From Desulfovibrio piger (lineage in GTDB: Bacteria > Desulfobacterota > Desulfovibrionia > Desulfovibrionales > Desulfovibrionaceae): DNA of 64,000 nt. Of this stretch, positions 30,332-42,319 are shown one piece after another. The notes under the pieces were generated by a model, which saw only the letters and a list, made by a program, of their open reading frames with translations, was not told the DNA's origin and searched no databases. The number at the start of each line of letters is the position of its first letter. The first letter of the stretch is position 1. The stretch lies in contig NZ_OX636706.1 in NCBI RefSeq assembly GCF_951793255.1, positions 1,075,001 through 1,139,000 on the forward strand, read 5' to 3'. Position numbers and translations under genes: made by a program.

Positions 30332-31438
30332 GGCAGATTGTCAAATGAATTGCACCGCAAGCAGGATACCCTTTTCCCGCAGCTGCTCGACAGTCGAAAG
30401 ATAACCGAACTTCTTTCTTGGGCGGTGGGTTATGAGAGCCACCGCCCTTGCTATCTCTTCATTGGTCAGCCGGGAAAAATCCCTCCTTCGGGGAAAGAAC
30501 TGCCGCAACAGGCCGTTGCTCTGTTCGTTCAGCGCACGTTCCCCCGGACAGCCCGGATGGCAGAAGTAACTTTTTACCTGAAGGGCCTCATCGACCTGCC
30601 GGAAGCCGAAGAACTCCTTGCCCCTGTCATAGGTCAAGGTGTGCCGATAGCGTGCGGGGACGCAGGAAAACAGCTCCTTCAGGCAGGAAGAGACGCACTC
30701 CACGTTTCGCGTCCGGCAAAATGCAGCCATGAGAAAGCCGCTTTTGCGTTCCACAGCCGTCAGGATATAGCCTGAATGCCGATGACCATGTATGAGATCG
30801 CATTCCCAGTGACCATAAATATTGGCGCCTGGGCGGTCGTCTATGTCCGGCAAATCGGGCAGATAGCGAACAGCGGACTTGGTGCGCCTGGAAAAGACTT
30901 TTCCTGGCCGCTTCAGACGAAGATATTTCCCATACCCCTTGAAAGGCCGTACCTTGCTGGAATCGCTGTCTTTCTGTATCCAACGGTAAATAGTCTTGAA
31001 ACTTATCAAGGGAAGGTTGAGGCAGGCGGCCTGCAGACGCAAGCGCCCCGCGATCTGTTCGGGAGACCAGCGTTCCCGGAGTTTTTCCTGGACGTAGGCC
31101 ACCAGCTCGGGTGTACGCCTGGAAGCCTTTTTGTCCTTCGTGTTCCGCCAGACAGCCTTGCGTTGCGCCATATCCGCCTGATATTTCCCGTCTTTCCCGC
31201 TGTTGCGTTTCAGCTCCCTGCTGATGCTGGAAGGCGCGTAGCCCAAGATCCCCGCTATTCTCCGAATGGAAAGATTCCCGGCAATGAGGCTGGCTAGTAT
31301 TTCCCGATGTGTTTGTGTAAGCTGGTGATGACCCACGACAGTCTCCTCATTGTGAGGTTTGTTTTTTTCCAACCTTGACTGTTGTGGGTCTTCCTGTTTT
31401 ACGCAAGCCCCGTGTTGCGTTTCAATTTACAATCTGCC
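30332..31438 (-). mobile_element. IS30-family insertion sequence, intact
   Basis: 1107 bp with imperfect terminal inverted repeats of about 23 bp: both ends begin GGCAGATTGT and share about 19 of 23 positions. A single transposase gene fills it. Flanks are TG on both sides, consistent with a 2-bp target duplication. The target is the loop of a dispersed palindrome. No second copy is in the window. Confidence 0.88.
30341..31372 (-). CDS. IS30-family transposase
   Basis: 343 residues. N-terminal helix-turn-helix (RREILASLIAGNLSIRRIAG-like segment, SSISRELKRN near 50) for end binding, a second HTH (WSPEQIAGRL near 100), then the DDE catalytic domain with WECDLIHG, TYDRGKEF and NEQSNGLLRQFFP. 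All three acidic residues are present and the frame is unbroken, so it is probably active. ATG at 31372 is close to the right end of the element. Confidence 0.93.
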   Translation of the reverse strand: MEKNKPHNEETVVGHHQLTQTHREILASLIAGNLSIRRIAGILGYAPSSISRELKRNSGKDGKYQADMAQRKAVWRNTKDKKASRRTPELVAYVQEKLRERWSPEQIAGRLRLQAACLNLPLISFKTIYRWIQKDSDSSKVRPFKGYGKYLRLKRPGKVFSRRTKSAVRYLPDLPDIDDRPGANIYGHWECDLIHGHRHSGYILTAVERKSGFLMAAFCRTRNVECVSSCLKELFSCVPARYRHTLTYDRGKEFFGFRQVDEALQVKSYFCHPGCPGERALNEQSNGLLRQFFPRRRDFSRLTNEEIARAVALITHRPRKKFGYLSTVEQLREKGILLAVQFI

Positions 31439-36932: not shown

Positions 36933-39473
36933 TTATTGGTAGGCGCCTTCACGCGTGCACTTGGAGGCATCGAACAGGGTGCCTTCCATGCGGTACTGTT
37001 CGAAGATGTAGGCGTTCTCCTTGTGCTCGCTCCAGCGCGCGCCGCCGCAGGCATGGGTGAGGATGCGCGGCTTGGGCAGGGCGGCCGGGTCACGCATCTC
37101 GAACTCGTCGGAGGCACCCACGCCCTGCAGGGCCAGGGTGGGCACGTCGGCGCTGGACATGAAGGCATCGCTGATGCGCAGCTCGCCGCGCTGATGGGGT
37201 TCCTTGACCATCAGGAGGGCGTGGGGACGGCCGGGAGCGTAGGTCGCGGTCTGGAAGACGGTACCGTCGGGGTATTCCTTGCCGTCGTTGTAGGCACGCT
37301 GCACCATGGGGCTGTCGCTCTCGCCGTGGTCGGAGACCAGGATGATGCGCGTGTTGTCGTAGATGCCGGCTTCCTTGAGCTGGTCGAAGAAGATCATCAG
37401 ATAACGCAGCAGGTGGCGTTCGGCGTAGTAGTGTTCGGGCAGCAGGCCGTCGACGAAGAAGAGCTGGCCCACGGTGGCCGGATAGGGGTCGGCCACGATC
37501 TCGGGCTGGCCGTCCTTGAGGTCGGGGGCGTAGTGCCACATGTAGTGGGACAGCATGGTGTAGAAGACCTTGGCCGTGCTGCGCGGGGCATCGGTGGTGA
37601 TGCCCGAGGTGAAGGCGAAGCGGAAGAAGGCGTCGCCCGCGCGGCAGGCGTCCATGCTGGCCACCAGGATGCCGTCGCCGGCGTCATGCCAGTTGCCGTC
37701 GTCGTAGATCTTCTGCTTGATGATGTTGGGCGAGGCCTGGAACAGGCCCAGCATGGCGAAGAAGCTGCTGAAGTCCCGCAGGCTGGTGCCCTGGTGGTAC
37801 TTGAGCTGGAAGTCGTCCTTGACCTGGGGCACGGTGGTGACGTTCTCCACCTTGCCGAGGTGACGCTCATAGAAGTCCTGGTTGAAGAACTCCAGGCCGT
37901 TGAGCATGCAGACATCGTAGCCGTGGGCCGCGAAGTTGCGGGGCATCACGGCAAAGGCGCTGTTGATGTTCTCTTCCAGGGTCACGTCGCGGCGGGCGTT
38001 GACGGCCGCCGGGCTGTAGGCGTGGCCGCCGTAGATGCTGGGCAGGCTCATGACCGTGGCGTCGGCCATGGAGATGGTGTCGGGGTACCAGACGAAGCCG
38101 TCCATGCCCTTGCGGAAGCCGTTGGTGAACCAGGGGTCGTCCAGCATCCGCTCGATATGGCCGCCGGTGAACATGTCCATGACGATGACGATGACGTTTT
38201 CGCCGTCCTTGGAATAGGACTGCATGTCAGCCACATAGGCGGGCGGGGTGAAGCTGGTCTTGGCCTGTTCGGGCTCTTCGGCGGTCAGGGCGTTCCAGGC
38301 CGTGAGGGCCACCAGGGAGAACACGGCGATGGAGAGCACGCGCGGCAGCTGCAGGCGCACCTTGGGGAAGGCGAACAGCAGGGCCGTCAGGCCCAGGGCC
38401 ACCAGCACGGGCAGCAGGCCGTCCTTGAAGGTGCTCATGGGGCCGGTGAGGGCGGCCTCACGCAGGAAGCGGATGCCGTCCAGGGCGCCGAAGTGGCCGG
38501 GCAGCACGAAAAGGTTCACGAAGGCGAGGCTCAGGGCCCAGAAGGCCACGAAGGCCGGGATGGTCTTGGCCTTGGCCGGGAACCAGAGCCAGAGCACGAA
38601 GACCACGAAGAAGGTCAGCGAAAGGTAGCGCACCATGCCCAGCAGCACGTCCAGGGGACCGGCGGCGAAGAAGTTGGGGTCGCTGGCGTAGGACTGGAAG
38701 GGCACGTACAGGAAGATCAGGATGGCCAGACCGGCGCAGGACAGGCTGTAGACCGAGCGCATGGTGGCGGCCATGACGGTGTTCATGCCGCCCTGGGCAA
38801 AGCCGGGCTTGCGGAAACGGGGCAGGCGGATGGGCAGGCGCAGGTTCTGGAGCAGGAAGAAGACGTTGTTCATGGTCCAGAAGATGAGCAGGGCCGAGGC
38901 CGCGTTGTACAGCAGCGCCAGGAAGAAGAAGGCGATGATGATGGCCTGCAGGGTGTCCTTGCGCGTCAGGCCCGGGGTGGTCAGCGTGGCGATGATGTTG
39001 ACCACGGTCATGACGATGGGCAGGGCGTTGACGCCCCAGAGCAGGCCGTCGGGCTGCGAAAGGTCGGGGATCATCAGGCAGGGCTGGCCCTGCAGCTGGG
39101 TGAGCCCCAGGATCATGTAGTACGCGCCGGTCAGGAAGGGGATCTGCAGGGCCACGCCGAAGGCCGAACGGACGGCCAGCAGCGGATGGTAGGCATAGCG
39201 CTTGTAGAGGTTGTTGATGCGGCGCTGGCGTTCGGCCCCCTTGGATTCCTTGCGGATGCGGGCCAGCTGCGGGGCCATGATCATCTGGAGTTTCTTTTCC
39301 CGGGCCTGGGTGCCCACGGCCAGACGTCCCAGGGGGATGAAGGCCACGGCGCTGATGCAGGACAGGACGAGGATGCTCAGGCCGTAGTTGTGGGTGAACT
39401 GGAGGCTGCCGAGATAGATGGCCCGGTAGATGATCTCGATGGGCAGGATGAATATTTCATACAGAAGCGACAT
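36933..39473 (-). CDS. YidC/Oxa1-like membrane domain fused to alkaline-phosphatase-superfamily phosphotransferase
   Basis: 846 residues. Residues 1-230 look like the insertase core of YidC: NYGLSILVL after an amphipathic start, a charged cytoplasmic loop (KLQMIMAPQLARIRKESKG), LYKRYAYHPL, VALQIPFLTGAYYMI, CLMIPDLSQPDGLLWG, ALPIVM and TMNNVFFLLQN. Residues about 245-415 add further hydrophobic helices. Residues about 420-846 are a sulfatase/EptA/LtaS-type domain: VIVIVMDMFTG (about 425-435, metal Asp), ADATVMSLPSIYGG (about 470, candidate nucleophile Thr), RIILVSDHGES (about 705-714, metal Asp-His) and RPHALLMVKEPH. The catalytic part should face the periplasm. Third gene of the cluster after the glycerophosphotransferase (36-nt gap). 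Function not known. Confidence 0.85.
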   Translation of the reverse strand: MSLLYEIFILPIEIIYRAIYLGSLQFTHNYGLSILVLSCISAVAFIPLGRLAVGTQAREKKLQMIMAPQLARIRKESKGAERQRRINNLYKRYAYHPLLAVRSAFGVALQIPFLTGAYYMILGLTQLQGQPCLMIPDLSQPDGLLWGVNALPIVMTVVNIIATLTTPGLTRKDTLQAIIIAFFFLALLYNAASALLIFWTMNNVFFLLQNLRLPIRLPRFRKPGFAQGGMNTVMAATMRSVYSLSCAGLAILIFLYVPFQSYASDPNFFAAGPLDVLLGMVRYLSLTFFVVFVLWLWFPAKAKTIPAFVAFWALSLAFVNLFVLPGHFGALDGIRFLREAALTGPMSTFKDGLLPVLVALGLTALLFAFPKVRLQLPRVLSIAVFSLVALTAWNALTAEEPEQAKTSFTPPAYVADMQSYSKDGENVIVIVMDMFTGGHIERMLDDPWFTNGFRKGMDGFVWYPDTISMADATVMSLPSIYGGHAYSPAAVNARRDVTLEENINSAFAVMPRNFAAHGYDVCMLNGLEFFNQDFYERHLGKVENVTTVPQVKDDFQLKYHQGTSLRDFSSFFAMLGLFQASPNIIKQKIYDDGNWHDAGDGILVASMDACRAGDAFFRFAFTSGITTDAPRSTAKVFYTMLSHYMWHYAPDLKDGQPEIVADPYPATVGQLFFVDGLLPEHYYAERHLLRYLMIFFDQLKEAGIYDNTRIILVSDHGESDSPMVQRAYNDGKEYPDGTVFQTATYAPGRPHALLMVKEPHQRGELRISDAFMSSADVPTLALQGVGASDEFEMRDPAALPKPRILTHACGGARWSEHKENAYIFEQYRMEGTLFDASKCTREGAYQ

Positions 39474-39509: not shown

Positions 39510-40844
39510 CTATTTCGTTTTGGTGGCGGCAGCTTCGGCCGCGTGTTCGGCGTCCATGCGGGCCAGGGTGTCCACGGTCCACTGGGCGATGGCTTCACCG
39601 CTCCGGCCCCAGCAGGCCACGGATTCCTCGCGGAAGGCGGCGATGGCGGAGGAAGGCGTCTTGAGGGCGCGTTCCACCACGGGCACGATGTTGTTGAAGT
39701 CCTCGGGCGAGACCACTTCGCCCAGACGGGCGGCCACGGTGTCTTCCCAGATGACGCCCAGGTCCGCCACCTCGTAGAGTTCGGGGTTGCGCACGGGGAT
39801 GTCCAGGGTGATGACGGGCTTCTCGTAAAGGAAGGCGAAGTCGAAGCGCACGCACGACTTGTCCGAGATCATGACGTCGGCCCGGCTCATGGAGGCGGTG
39901 GCATCCATCTCGGTATCGAAGCTGACGTTGGGGTAGTCGCGCAGCATCTCGTGGATGGTGTCCAGCATCTCGGTCTCCACCTTGAGGGACTGGGGATGCG
40001 GGCGCAGGATCACGTCATAGCCGGCCTTGGCCAGATCCAGCAGGAAGTTGGGGCCGCAGATGTTGAGGCAGCCCTTGTTGCCCCACGAGGGGGCCACCAG
40101 CACCACGGGCGGGGTGCTCCGGCCTTCCTTCTTGCGGGCTTTGGCGGCCAGCTCGTCCAGATAGGGCAGGCCCAGGGAGACGCATTCCTTGGGCGGCAGG
40201 CCGCGCAGCTCTTCCACCTTGCGGATGCTGGGCAGCATGAAGTCGCCCACCATCAGGACGGCGTCGTAATGGTCCAGGGAGCCTTTCTGGTACATGGCGA
40301 TGTCGCCCACGCCGTGGCAGATATGGGCCAGGTTGGTCACGCGGCGCGGACGCGGCATGGGGAAGCCGGGCGTGCCGATGTTGGGCGTGGTGGAGAGCAT
40401 GATGTCGGCGCGGCGACCGGCGGCGCGGGCAAAGGCCGCGGAACCCGTGCCGATGTAGCGCGAGTTCATGAGGTCGTTCTCGATGGTCAGGGCCGGGTCT
40501 TCCACATCCATGGTGATGTAGGAGAAGGGCACGCCGCGGCGCAGGAAGGCGTCGATGACGGGCTTGAAGGTGTAATAGTAGCTGCGGCCTTCGGAGAACA
40601 TGAGGATGCGCTCGTGGTGCAGCTGCTTTTCGGGACGGCGCTCACCCTTGGCCCTGCCCATGATGGCGTAGACGATGTTCTTGACGAAATAGAGCACCGT
40701 ACCCACCAGGCTGATGGCCAGGTAGACCAGCACGTTGCCCGTGCCGGGGTCGAGGTAGGCGTAGGAGGGCGCGGGGAACAGGGCTTCCAGCACCAGCCAG
40801 AGCCCCAGATAGGCGCCCACGGAAATCAGAAAACCGCGCTTCAT
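39510..40844 (-). CDS. CDP-glycerol glycerophosphotransferase family protein
   Basis: 444 residues. N-terminal hydrophobic leader (about 5-22) with the sequence AYLDPGTGNVLVY and a second membrane helix (LAISLVGTVLYFVKNIVYAI), then a GT-B-like domain of the TagF/TagB family: ILMFSEGRSYYYTFKPV, NLAHICHGVGD, VLVAPSWGNKG, RPHPQS near 280 and SDKSCVRFDFAF near 325. The family transfers polyol-phosphate from CDP-polyols onto a growing chain or lipid. ATG at 40844 overlaps the stop of the upstream LicC-LicA gene (ATGA). In a Gram-negative a capsule or LPS substituent is likelier than teichoic acid. Confidence 0.87.
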   Translation of the reverse strand: MKRGFLISVGAYLGLWLVLEALFPAPSYAYLDPGTGNVLVYLAISLVGTVLYFVKNIVYAIMGRAKGERRPEKQLHHERILMFSEGRSYYYTFKPVIDAFLRRGVPFSYITMDVEDPALTIENDLMNSRYIGTGSAAFARAAGRRADIMLSTTPNIGTPGFPMPRPRRVTNLAHICHGVGDIAMYQKGSLDHYDAVLMVGDFMLPSIRKVEELRGLPPKECVSLGLPYLDELAAKARKKEGRSTPPVVLVAPSWGNKGCLNICGPNFLLDLAKAGYDVILRPHPQSLKVETEMLDTIHEMLRDYPNVSFDTEMDATASMSRADVMISDKSCVRFDFAFLYEKPVITLDIPVRNPELYEVADLGVIWEDTVAARLGEVVSPEDFNNIVPVVERALKTPSSAIAAFREESVACWGRSGEAIAQWTVDTLARMDAEHAAEAAATKTK

Positions 40845-42319
40845 GCCAGTTGTTCTCCGCGTTGCAGCAGTTTCAGGTTGCGGTCCATTTCCGCGATGCG
40901 GCCACGACCGTAGTCGATGCACTCGCGGTAGAAGCCCCACAGGCCCCAGATGTAATCCACGATGATCATGGCCTTGAGCAGGCGGGTGCGGTCCGCGCCG
41001 CTGGCTTCGATAAAGGCGTCCAGCAGGGGGCCGGAAAGACGGGTCTCGGTGACGAAGCTGGCGTAGTCCCAGTAGGGCGAGCAGAAGCAGGCGTACTCGA
41101 AGTCGATGAGCTTGATGTCGTCGCCCTTGCGCAGAATGTTCTCCAGCACGAAGTCGCGATGGCAGAAGCGCTTCTCGTCGCTGTCCATCTCGCGGGCGAA
41201 ATCGTAGAACAGGCTGCGCTCATGGTCGGCCAGCAGGTTGACGCCGCTCTGGCGTTCGTAGAGCTTGACCTCGGAAAGCACGGAGAGCACGGCGCTGGGG
41301 CCGTACTTTTCGCGGAAGCCTTCGGGCATGCGGATGTCATGCAGGCGGCGCATGATGTCCACCACCCCGCGCACCTCGAACCGGTCCAGGGTGTCGTGGT
41401 TCAGGATGCGGTAGCCTTCCAGAAAGTCCGTGGTCTTGATGCCGCCCGCGTAGAAGTGGCACTCGGGCGTGATGTCCAGATCCTTCACCATCTCCAGCAT
41501 GGCCGCTTCCACGCTGCGGTCGATGATCTGGTCGGTGCCCTGGCCGGGGATGCGCAGCACAAGGCCCTTGCCGTCCAGCTGGATGTGATAGGTGTCGTTG
41601 GTCAGGCCCTTGAGCTTTTCGGCCATCTGGGTCTCGGAGCACTGGTCGGCCAGTTCGTCGGGCGTCAGCAGGCCCAGGGAAAGGGCGTCGCTCAGGCTGT
41701 CGATCTCGCAGAGCAGCATCTTCACCCGCGTGGCGTAGACGGGCACGCGGTCCAGGATGCGGATGACGGAGTCTTCCCAGTAGTCGTCCGGGCCGCTCCT
41801 GTCCAGTTCCTCGCGGATGAGGGCCGCGGCCTCCTCGGTCCAGTAGGAGACGCCGGACATGCAGTAGCCCGAGGGCGAATCCTTGCGCACGGAGACCACG
41901 CGGTCGTCGGCATCGGTGATCAGCTCCCATTCATGGCCCTGCTGGGTCTGCTGGCAGATGAACTGCGAGACCCCGGGACGCACCAGGGGCACCACCGGAC
42001 GGCGGATGTAGGTGTCACCGTCGATGACCAGGCTGTCGCCCAGGCGGTGGGCCACCAGCTGGAGGGAGGAATAGTTGTTGGCCGTGGCATACTGCGCCGA
42101 GATGATGAGCTGGACGCCGTATTTGTCCACAAGATAGTTGAAGCATTCGTGCTTGTAACCGACCACCAGGGCGATGTCGGTGACGCCGTCGGCATGGAGC
42201 TGGCGGATGGTACGTTCCACCAGCGGATATCCGCCGATGTTGAGCAGGGGCTTGGGCTTCAGATAGGTGAAGGGGCGCAGACGCGTCCCGAAGCCGGCAC
42301 AAAGAATGTTGGCACGCAT
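40841..42319 (-). CDS. LicC-like nucleotidyltransferase fused to LicA/choline-kinase-like domain
   Basis: 492 residues. Residues 1-230: sugar/choline-phosphate nucleotidyltransferase with CAGFGTRLRPFT (7-18), KPKPLLNIGGYPLVERTI, VVGYKHE, NNYSSLQL and DGDTYI. Residues about 265-490: kinase of the choline/ethanolamine type with NDTYHI, GKGLVLRIPGQGT, CHRDFVLENIL near 384 (Brenner-like motif) and IKLIDFEYACF near 400. The two activities would phosphorylate a small alcohol and couple it to CTP. The N-terminal GxGTR and Lys residues are intact. ATG at 42319 with AGGAG 8 nt upstream. First gene of the cluster. Substrate (choline, ethanolamine or other) is not decided by the sequence. Confidence 0.87.
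   Translation of the reverse strand: MRANILCAGFGTRLRPFTYLKPKPLLNIGGYPLVERTIRQLHADGVTDIALVVGYKHECFNYLVDKYGVQLIISAQYATANNYSSLQLVAHRLGDSLVIDGDTYIRRPVVPLVRPGVSQFICQQTQQGHEWELITDADDRVVSVRKDSPSGYCMSGVSYWTEEAAALIREELDRSGPDDYWEDSVIRILDRVPVYATRVKMLLCEIDSLSDALSLGLLTPDELADQCSETQMAEKLKGLTNDTYHIQLDGKGLVLRIPGQGTDQIIDRSVEAAMLEMVKDLDITPECHFYAGGIKTTDFLEGYRILNHDTLDRFEVRGVVDIMRRLHDIRMPEGFREKYGPSAVLSVLSEVKLYERQSGVNLLADHERSLFYDFAREMDSDEKRFCHRDFVLENILRKGDDIKLIDFEYACFCSPYWDYASFVTETRLSGPLLDAFIEASGADRTRLLKAMIIVDYIWGLWGFYRECIDYGRGRIAEMDRNLKLLQRGEQLA

Follow-up and report, generated by a model that had tools for sequence, protein, structure and literature searches.

The 64,000-nucleotide window that we analyzed (contig NZ_OX636706.1 of the Desulfovibrio piger assembly GCF_951793255.1) carries on its minus strand three adjoining genes encoding, in order, a LicC-LicA protein, a PF04464-like protein (hereafter gpt), and an 846-residue protein in which a YidC-like domain precedes a domain of the alkaline phosphatase (AP) superfamily (hereafter the fusion; Table 1). 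The fusion frame is uninterrupted from ATG to stop. Given their likely starts, LicC-LicA and gpt overlap by ATGA, and 36 bases separate gpt from the fusion. The likely ATG of gpt, which overlaps the upstream stop, lies at 40844, and the likely Met start of LicC-LicA at 42319; the open reading frame list begins these genes at 40940 and 42478, respectively. The fusion is a family of its own, recurring in at least five phyla, and is probably a missing last step in the decoration of bacterial cell surfaces.

Table 1. Features of the three-gene cluster, in window positions.
Feature	Position	Strand	Basis
YidC-like/AP-superfamily fusion, 846 residues	36933..39473	-	Open frame; PF02096 and PF00884 above cut-off; full-length relatives
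YidC-like domain, residues 29-212	38838..39389	-	Pfam, solved-structure and profile matches; residue comparison
Residue 42 (Ala), at the groove-Arg position of YidC	39348-39350	-	Alignment comparison
AP-superfamily domain, residues 424-790, with D433, T473, H643, D715 and H716	37104..38204	-	Pfam, profiles, conservation
gpt, PF04464-like (CDP-glycerol glycerophosphotransferase-like; CDP, cytidine diphosphate)	39510..40844	-	Pfam, motifs
LicC-LicA fusion: cytidine triphosphate:phosphocholine cytidylyltransferase-like and choline-kinase-like	40841..42319	-	Structure matches, Pfam

A sequence-only reading had recognized the two domains in one protein, and Pfam confirmed both: 60KD_IMP (PF02096) matched residues 30–211 (E = 6.8e-18, 65.6 bits, cut-off 35) and Sulfatase (PF00884) residues 426–781 (E = 1.3e-6, 28.4 bits, cut-off 25). 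The proposed YidC resemblance of the N-terminal half was borne out by a sequence search of solved structures, which aligned residues 25–210 with YidC 3wvf (E = 5.5e-8); the narrower NCBIfam model of the YidC C-terminal domain, TIGR03592, was missed (62.3 vs. 84.3 bits). A family profile of the fusion matched YidC (8e-14) and LtaS (2e-10), its C-terminal part matching LtaS, sulfatases, and MCR-1. When overlapping peaks were combined by eye, the hydropathy and charge pattern was compatible with five YidC-type helices, a positive cytoplasmic loop (residues 58–97), another five helices between the YidC-like and AP parts, and an outward-facing AP domain.

Of at least 591 contig stretches fitting the family pattern, 588 proved to be relatives; all locus counts given below refer to the best 80 of these, representing 78 loci. 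According to their record titles, these loci belong to Desulfovibrio, Treponema and other Spirochaetia, Clostridia, Gastranaerophilales, Photobacterium, and a Tannerellaceae metagenome-assembled genome. These loci do not all count as independent, since L024, L025, and L032 resemble near-copies. The fusion of L003 (Desulfovibrio piger) is 99% identical to the window's protein. Within the window's order, the fusion is sporadic, being held by 5 of 61 genomes (G000, G006, G007, G008, and G031). In 19 other fusion-bearing genomes, reached via 20 loci partly picked for varied context (L052 was left out), PF02096 gave 83 matches, comprising 18 that we class as canonical YidCs (343–634 residues) and 65 fusion-type matches, with one to ten fusion copies per genome. 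Frames of at least 839 residues contain 62 of the 65; the other three are an interrupted copy (432 residues) and two frames, 710 and 759 residues long, that match the domain in part, and apart from these three no stand-alone YidC-like copy was found among the 65.

This distribution bears on the possibility that a chimera or frameshift joined two ordinary genes. Interrupted or split copies do exist in at least 3 of the 78 loci (L009, L031, and L078), with intact copies elsewhere, and eight AP relatives among the best 120 of 489 lack the YidC-like domain. Full-length relatives, the recurrence of the domain order across phyla, and the long open frames in the 19 genomes nevertheless rule out such an artefact, which we give almost no chance of being correct, and the local frameshift considered by the sequence-only reading is likewise contradicted.

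Protein-level searches gave a similar picture. A full-length search of 5.8 billion proteins yielded 65 matches among 8000 scored candidates, of which 59 were fusion-type, including three shorter near-identical pieces (P0006 to P0008), and six were canonical YidCs. Residues 1–225 alone retrieved 81 proteins: 71 with an AP domain by profile, seven with another C-terminal part, two pieces, and P0111, in which a partial YidC-like domain is followed by a major facilitator superfamily domain on a 2.4-kb contig, perhaps a chimera. With the AP part as a query, the best 120 of 489 matches included 109 new proteins, 101 of which carry the YidC-like domain by profile. The apparent start of most of the remaining eight falls within the helix region or the AP domain. 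One of them, P0112 (623 residues), shows five hydrophobic peaks ahead of its AP part and may be genuinely unfused, which makes the link between the two domains near-obligate rather than absolute.

The seven proteins with a different C-terminal part (P0046, P0048, P0050, P0054, P0073, P0074, and P0076) are nested inside the fusion tree. This part was missed by the AP profile and had a weak HHalign probability to AP (8.6); in six of the seven (P0054 left out), Pfam Sulfatase was below cut-off in three and absent in three. P0073 seems cut short, and by eye several of the seven have Ser instead of Thr. Longer fusions also occur: P0018 and P0058 have extra C-terminal regions, that of P0018 weakly resembling DUF7024, and P0090 has an extended middle part.

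The YidC-like domain shares the core helices with YidC/Oxa1 insertases (PF02096), and Q110, P112, D137, D142, W199, and N203 are common to family and canonical rows. In contrast to this likeness, the domains of the fusions form a separate branch (SH-aLRT 100; 62 fusion vs. 14 canonical rows, the latter a narrow sample of ten from the window's relatives and four from the protein search) and precede an AP domain in nearly all cases. The groove arginine of YidC, whose retention the sequence-only reading had proposed to check, is lost: in an alignment with the solved YidC structure, the equivalent position, which we take to be the functionally important R366 of E. coli, is Ala42 in the fusion. A basic residue occurs at this position in 0 of 225 family rows (near-copies and the query included) vs. 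24 of 27 canonical rows, one of which (L031) is a fragment from an interrupted fusion and is gapped in this column. The family mostly has Asn (75), Ser (60), or Thr (56) there. A second alignment, in which the family was thinned to 70% identity (107 rows), gave Asn 38, Thr 29, Ser 25, Ala 6, and a few others. Of the 18 canonical YidCs in the same genomes, 17 were recovered in this alignment, and 16 of these have Arg or Lys, as do 24 of 26 further canonical rows (20 from the window's relatives and six from the protein search).

The family has conserved polar residues of its own: Arg or Lys at 102 (203 of 225 rows), N149 (219), T156 (222), and N159 (223), T156 and N159 lying in a predicted membrane helix. 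These mostly differ from the canonical rows, a few of which share T156, N159, or N149; in the second alignment, most canonical rows are gapped opposite residue 102, so that its YidC counterpart is uncertain. When 51 sequences were compared pairwise, identity was higher in the YidC-like than in the AP domain for 1274 of 1275 pairs (median 41.6% vs. 24.8%), and the best-conserved part of the protein would not be expected to be a mere anchor.

A second housekeeping YidC was considered and rejected as the main explanation, as the same genome encodes a separate normal YidC of 558 residues and the groove residue is lost. A related explanation is that the domain still acts as a dedicated insertase or chaperone, inserting membrane protein segments such as the helices and AP domain that follow it, or gpt. 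The clear YidC homology and the shared W199, N203, Q110, D137, and D142 speak for it. We nevertheless regard this explanation as improbable, since the basic groove residue is missing throughout the family and kept in nearly all canonical rows, including those of the same genomes, a normal YidC is also present in 18 of the 19 fusion-bearing genomes (G070 being the exception), and one to ten copies per genome would be odd for a chaperone.

The AP domain looks active by the conservation of its putative catalytic residues. Among 209 rows, D433 was kept in 206, T473 and H643 in all, and D715 and H716 in 208 each; D433, Thr or Ser at 473, D715, and H716 were jointly kept in 205. By analogy with EptA and LtaS, we take T473 to be the likely nucleophile, and D433, D715, and H716 presumably act as metal ligands, as in the superfamily. 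The sequence-only reading had credited the domain with all the usual motifs; the histidine of its RPHALLM motif is not family-wide, being present by eye in ~10 of 40 rows of one alignment.

Transferases of the LtaS and EptA kind have several membrane helices followed by an outward AP domain. The fusion resembles EptA/MCR and LtaS in its predicted helices, followed by an AP domain that is probably outward and has the Asp, Thr, and Asp-His set, and differs in carrying a YidC-like domain in front and in missing the NCBIfam LtaS cut-off (14.7 vs. 970 bits). No EptA model was among the 15 NCBIfam families matching the fusion at E values up to 1. The AP profile alone gave weak matches to phosphonate monoester hydrolases and sulfatases (E = 1.6e-7 to 9e-4), with LtaS (3.9e-4) weaker than the best of these. 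The superfamily of the domain is thus clear, its reaction is not fixed by the profile, and an assignment as strictly EptA or strictly LtaS was dropped because the profile does not decide between them. The same matches would suit a remodelling hydrolase that cleaves phosphodiesters or phosphonate esters off surface polymers instead of transferring a group. We consider such an enzyme a long shot, as the recurrent neighbours of the fusion build activated donors (see below) and several helices in front of an outward AP domain recall LtaS and EptA.

The partner gpt passes Pfam PF04464 narrowly (22.9 bits, cut-off 22.1), its relative at L076 scoring 31.9 bits. The protein has an N-terminal hydrophobic stretch, a DPGTG motif, and an RPHP motif; R-x-H-P was found in 60 of 60 cluster members, as a likeness to TagF/TagB-type CDP-glycerol glycerophosphotransferases, whereas the N-terminal DPG[TS]G, which 57 of the 60 have, is a difference from them. 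A sequence search of solved structures found no match for gpt, which also sets it apart from these enzymes.

Neighbours were counted by tblastn on all 78 loci, because longest-frame gene calling had missed L003, L004, and L011. A gpt gene lies on the same strand within 400 base pairs of the fusion in 54 loci and anywhere in the locus in 61; when the count is restricted to the 41 loci flanked by 5 kb or more on each side, the numbers are 28 and 32. In the 19 genomes, each of the 36 gpt homologues found genome-wide (one short match of 66 residues in G072 was dropped beforehand) has the YidC-like domain of a fusion no more than 8 kb away. For 33 of them the distance is at most 3 kb, where uniform placement predicts 0.39. 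The window's genome has a single gpt homologue, the one adjoining the fusion. With 65 fusions but 36 gpt genes in these genomes, the numbers would suit a single donor-making enzyme that supplies several transferases, each specific for its acceptor. The idea that gpt was lost as a trait of one clade was rejected, as the four such tree rows were scattered (four changes).

So tight a gene partnership could also mean that the YidC-like domain is a docking module, its basic loop and conserved helices holding gpt near the AP domain while another flippase does the crossing. The loop at residues 58–97 is strongly basic (12 Lys/Arg, 3 Asp/Glu), with Gly79 kept in 222 and Tyr95 in 224 of 225 rows. A docking loop would not, however, need T156 and N159 within a predicted membrane helix, and 17 of the 78 loci show no gpt near the fusion. 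This explanation is therefore unlikely in our estimation, although it is the most serious of the competitors.

Enzymes of head-group synthesis, by nucleotidyl activation or by phosphonate formation, lie near the fusion in 35 of the 78 loci: NTP-transferase in 32, CobD-like aminotransferase-fold proteins in 16, PepM-like in 14, Ppd-like (phosphonopyruvate-decarboxylase-like) in 12, class V aminotransferase in 8, and LicA-like in 5. The surface-phosphopolymer context suggested by the sequence-only reading can now be stated more specifically, as one of a linked gpt and, in these 35 loci, enzymes of CDP- or cytidine monophosphate (CMP)-activated head-groups. In the window, the LicC-LicA protein matches the solved structures 1jyk (E = 4.1e-34) and 4r77 (E = 3.9e-19), and its similarity to LicA and LicC points to choline or ethanolamine as the head-group.

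Domain calls were made on ten chosen neighbour proteins. NTP-transferase is fused to enzymes of the pyridoxal phosphate-dependent type at three loci: to Aminotran_5 (class V) at L016 (16631–18478), in the layout of PntC 6pd1, and to Aminotran_1_2 (class I/II, CobD-like) at L037 (12640–14442) and L070 (5529–7520). Because the Aminotran_1_2 part at L037 is closest to the threonine-phosphate decarboxylase-like 6oux (4e-44), proteins of this type may make a phosphoethanolamine-like or CDP-ethanolamine-type head-group. Phosphoenolpyruvate mutase carries one or two cytidylyltransferase domains at L016 and L018, and a thiamine pyrophosphate enzyme and an iron-type alcohol dehydrogenase (FeADH) were also among the ten. 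The genes at L016 are ordered fusion-fusion-gpt-PepM-Ppd-PntC/AEPT and appear operon-like; the orders at L064 (fusion-gpt-PepM-Ppd-PntC/AEPT-fusion) and L034 (gpt-fusion-NTPT/CobD-fusion-fusion-fusion-PepM-FeADH-Ppd-gpt) read as cassettes.

These enzymes allow a comparison with two known routes. The Lic-1 phosphocholine pathway (LicA, LicB, LicC, and LicD) is described in PMC10434233, which assigns PptA to the AP superfamily. By sequence, the window has LicA- and LicC-like domains in one protein. Unlike Lic-1, its genome gave no match to LicD (PF04991), and gpt and the fusion would stand where LicD acts. The phosphonate tailoring (Pnt) pathway with PntC, as presented in the text of PMC6697681, is matched in relatives of the fusion by PepM-like, Ppd-like, and PntC-like nucleotidyltransferase-aminotransferase proteins beside gpt and the fusion. 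It differs in that this text names LicD-like phosphotransferases or glycosyltransferases and calls the later phosphonate tailoring steps enigmatic; the terms YidC, insertase, Oxa1, sulfatase, and alkaline phosphatase do not occur in it. Text searches of open-licence PubMed Central turned up no paper whose listing points to a YidC-like/AP fusion.

LicD was also absent from the other four fusion-bearing relatives of the window and, overall, from 13 of 24 fusion-bearing genomes. A PF13714 (PepM) match was found in 13 genomes, though this model also matches 6 of 14 control genomes and its 13 matches need not all be true PepM. It lies within 10 kb of a fusion in eight of them: five lack LicD (G064, G067, G068, G076, and G077), G066 and G075 have LicD within 8 kb of PepM, and G074 has it on another contig. 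Among the other five, LicD lies within 8 kb of PepM in G069, G072, and G073 and on other contigs in G071, and G078 has none. The assemblies compared here are few, were in part deliberately selected, and are of unstated completeness, and the PepM and LicD figures are not an unbiased survey.

Putting these results together, we propose that the three genes form a LicD-independent pathway that places small phosphate-bearing head-groups on the cell surface, a proposal to which we give an even chance. In this genome, the LicC-LicA protein would make CDP-choline or a similar CDP-alcohol, and membrane-anchored gpt would transfer the CDP-borne phospho-head-group to a lipid facing the cytoplasm. The YidC-like domain, having lost the basic groove residue and gained other polar ones, would carry the head-group of this lipid across the membrane, where the outward AP domain would pass it via Thr473 to a surface glycan, in the way that EptA uses phosphatidylethanolamine as a donor. 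In other bacteria, the same fusion/gpt pair may serve CMP-phosphonates (2-aminoethyl- or hydroxyethylphosphonate) or the product of a CobD-like decarboxylase. Set beside the observed architecture, residue conservation, gene partnership, and recurrent head-group enzymes, we infer the lipid-linked donor, the groove transport, the acceptor, and the exact head-group.

With donor activation inside, a catalytic Thr outside, and a conserved groove-type domain between them, something would have to cross the membrane. That a groove feeds the periplasmic transferase, as the sequence-only reading had supposed, remains the best-fitting idea, because the YidC-like domain is the best-conserved part, has its own polar residues in predicted helices, and has lost the basic groove residue. 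According to PMC10491306, lipids are scrambled in vitro by YidC, Oxa1, and Get1, with the insertion groove as the path in simulations, for which reason we favor a lipid-linked head-group passing via gpt, groove, and AP domain. The lipid step has a precedent in a different family: PMC11982090 shows a member of the LicD family transferring phosphocholine from CDP-choline to a glycolipid. The wider proposition, that a branch of the YidC family left insertion and became a head-group-translocating groove which, with gpt, offers a LicD-independent route for phosphocholine-like and phosphonate decoration and supplies the missing transfer step in many bacterial phosphonate pathways, is more tentative, and we place it somewhat short of even.

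Several observations weigh against the proposed three-gene pathway. No gene identifies the lipid, and the AP domain has no specific transferase assignment, its profile also matching phosphonate monoester hydrolases and sulfatases. Head-group enzymes are lacking in 43 of the 78 loci. Nine of the 17 loci without gpt have ~9 kb or more on each side (the other eight have little sequence on one side), and 29 of the 65 fusions in the 19 genomes have no gpt within 3 kb, compared with 36 that do. LicD is present in 11 of the 24 fusion-bearing genomes, and where it is absent, gaps in a draft or metagenome assembly may be the cause. Support for the phosphonate version comes from relatives, as the window's genome has no PepM above cut-off, with a sub-cut-off match only (20.1 vs. 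31.5 bits).

If correct, the proposal would describe a YidC-fold protein with a job other than protein insertion, provide a candidate for the phosphonate-tailoring transfer step called enigmatic in PMC6697681, and explain surface decoration by bacteria that have LicA and LicC and lack LicD. The family would then also provide a natural test case for lipid transport as the main function of an insertase groove. Several of its members carry the source name "YidC/Oxa1 family membrane protein insertase", though they are probably surface transferases.

A role in defence was rejected, since none of the three cluster proteins had a PADLOC defence-system match. An adenylosuccinate synthetase gene lies ~295 bases beyond the fusion, and a transposase-like gene with HTH_38 and an rve integrase core (30341–31372, minus strand) lies ~5.6 kb from the three-gene cluster.

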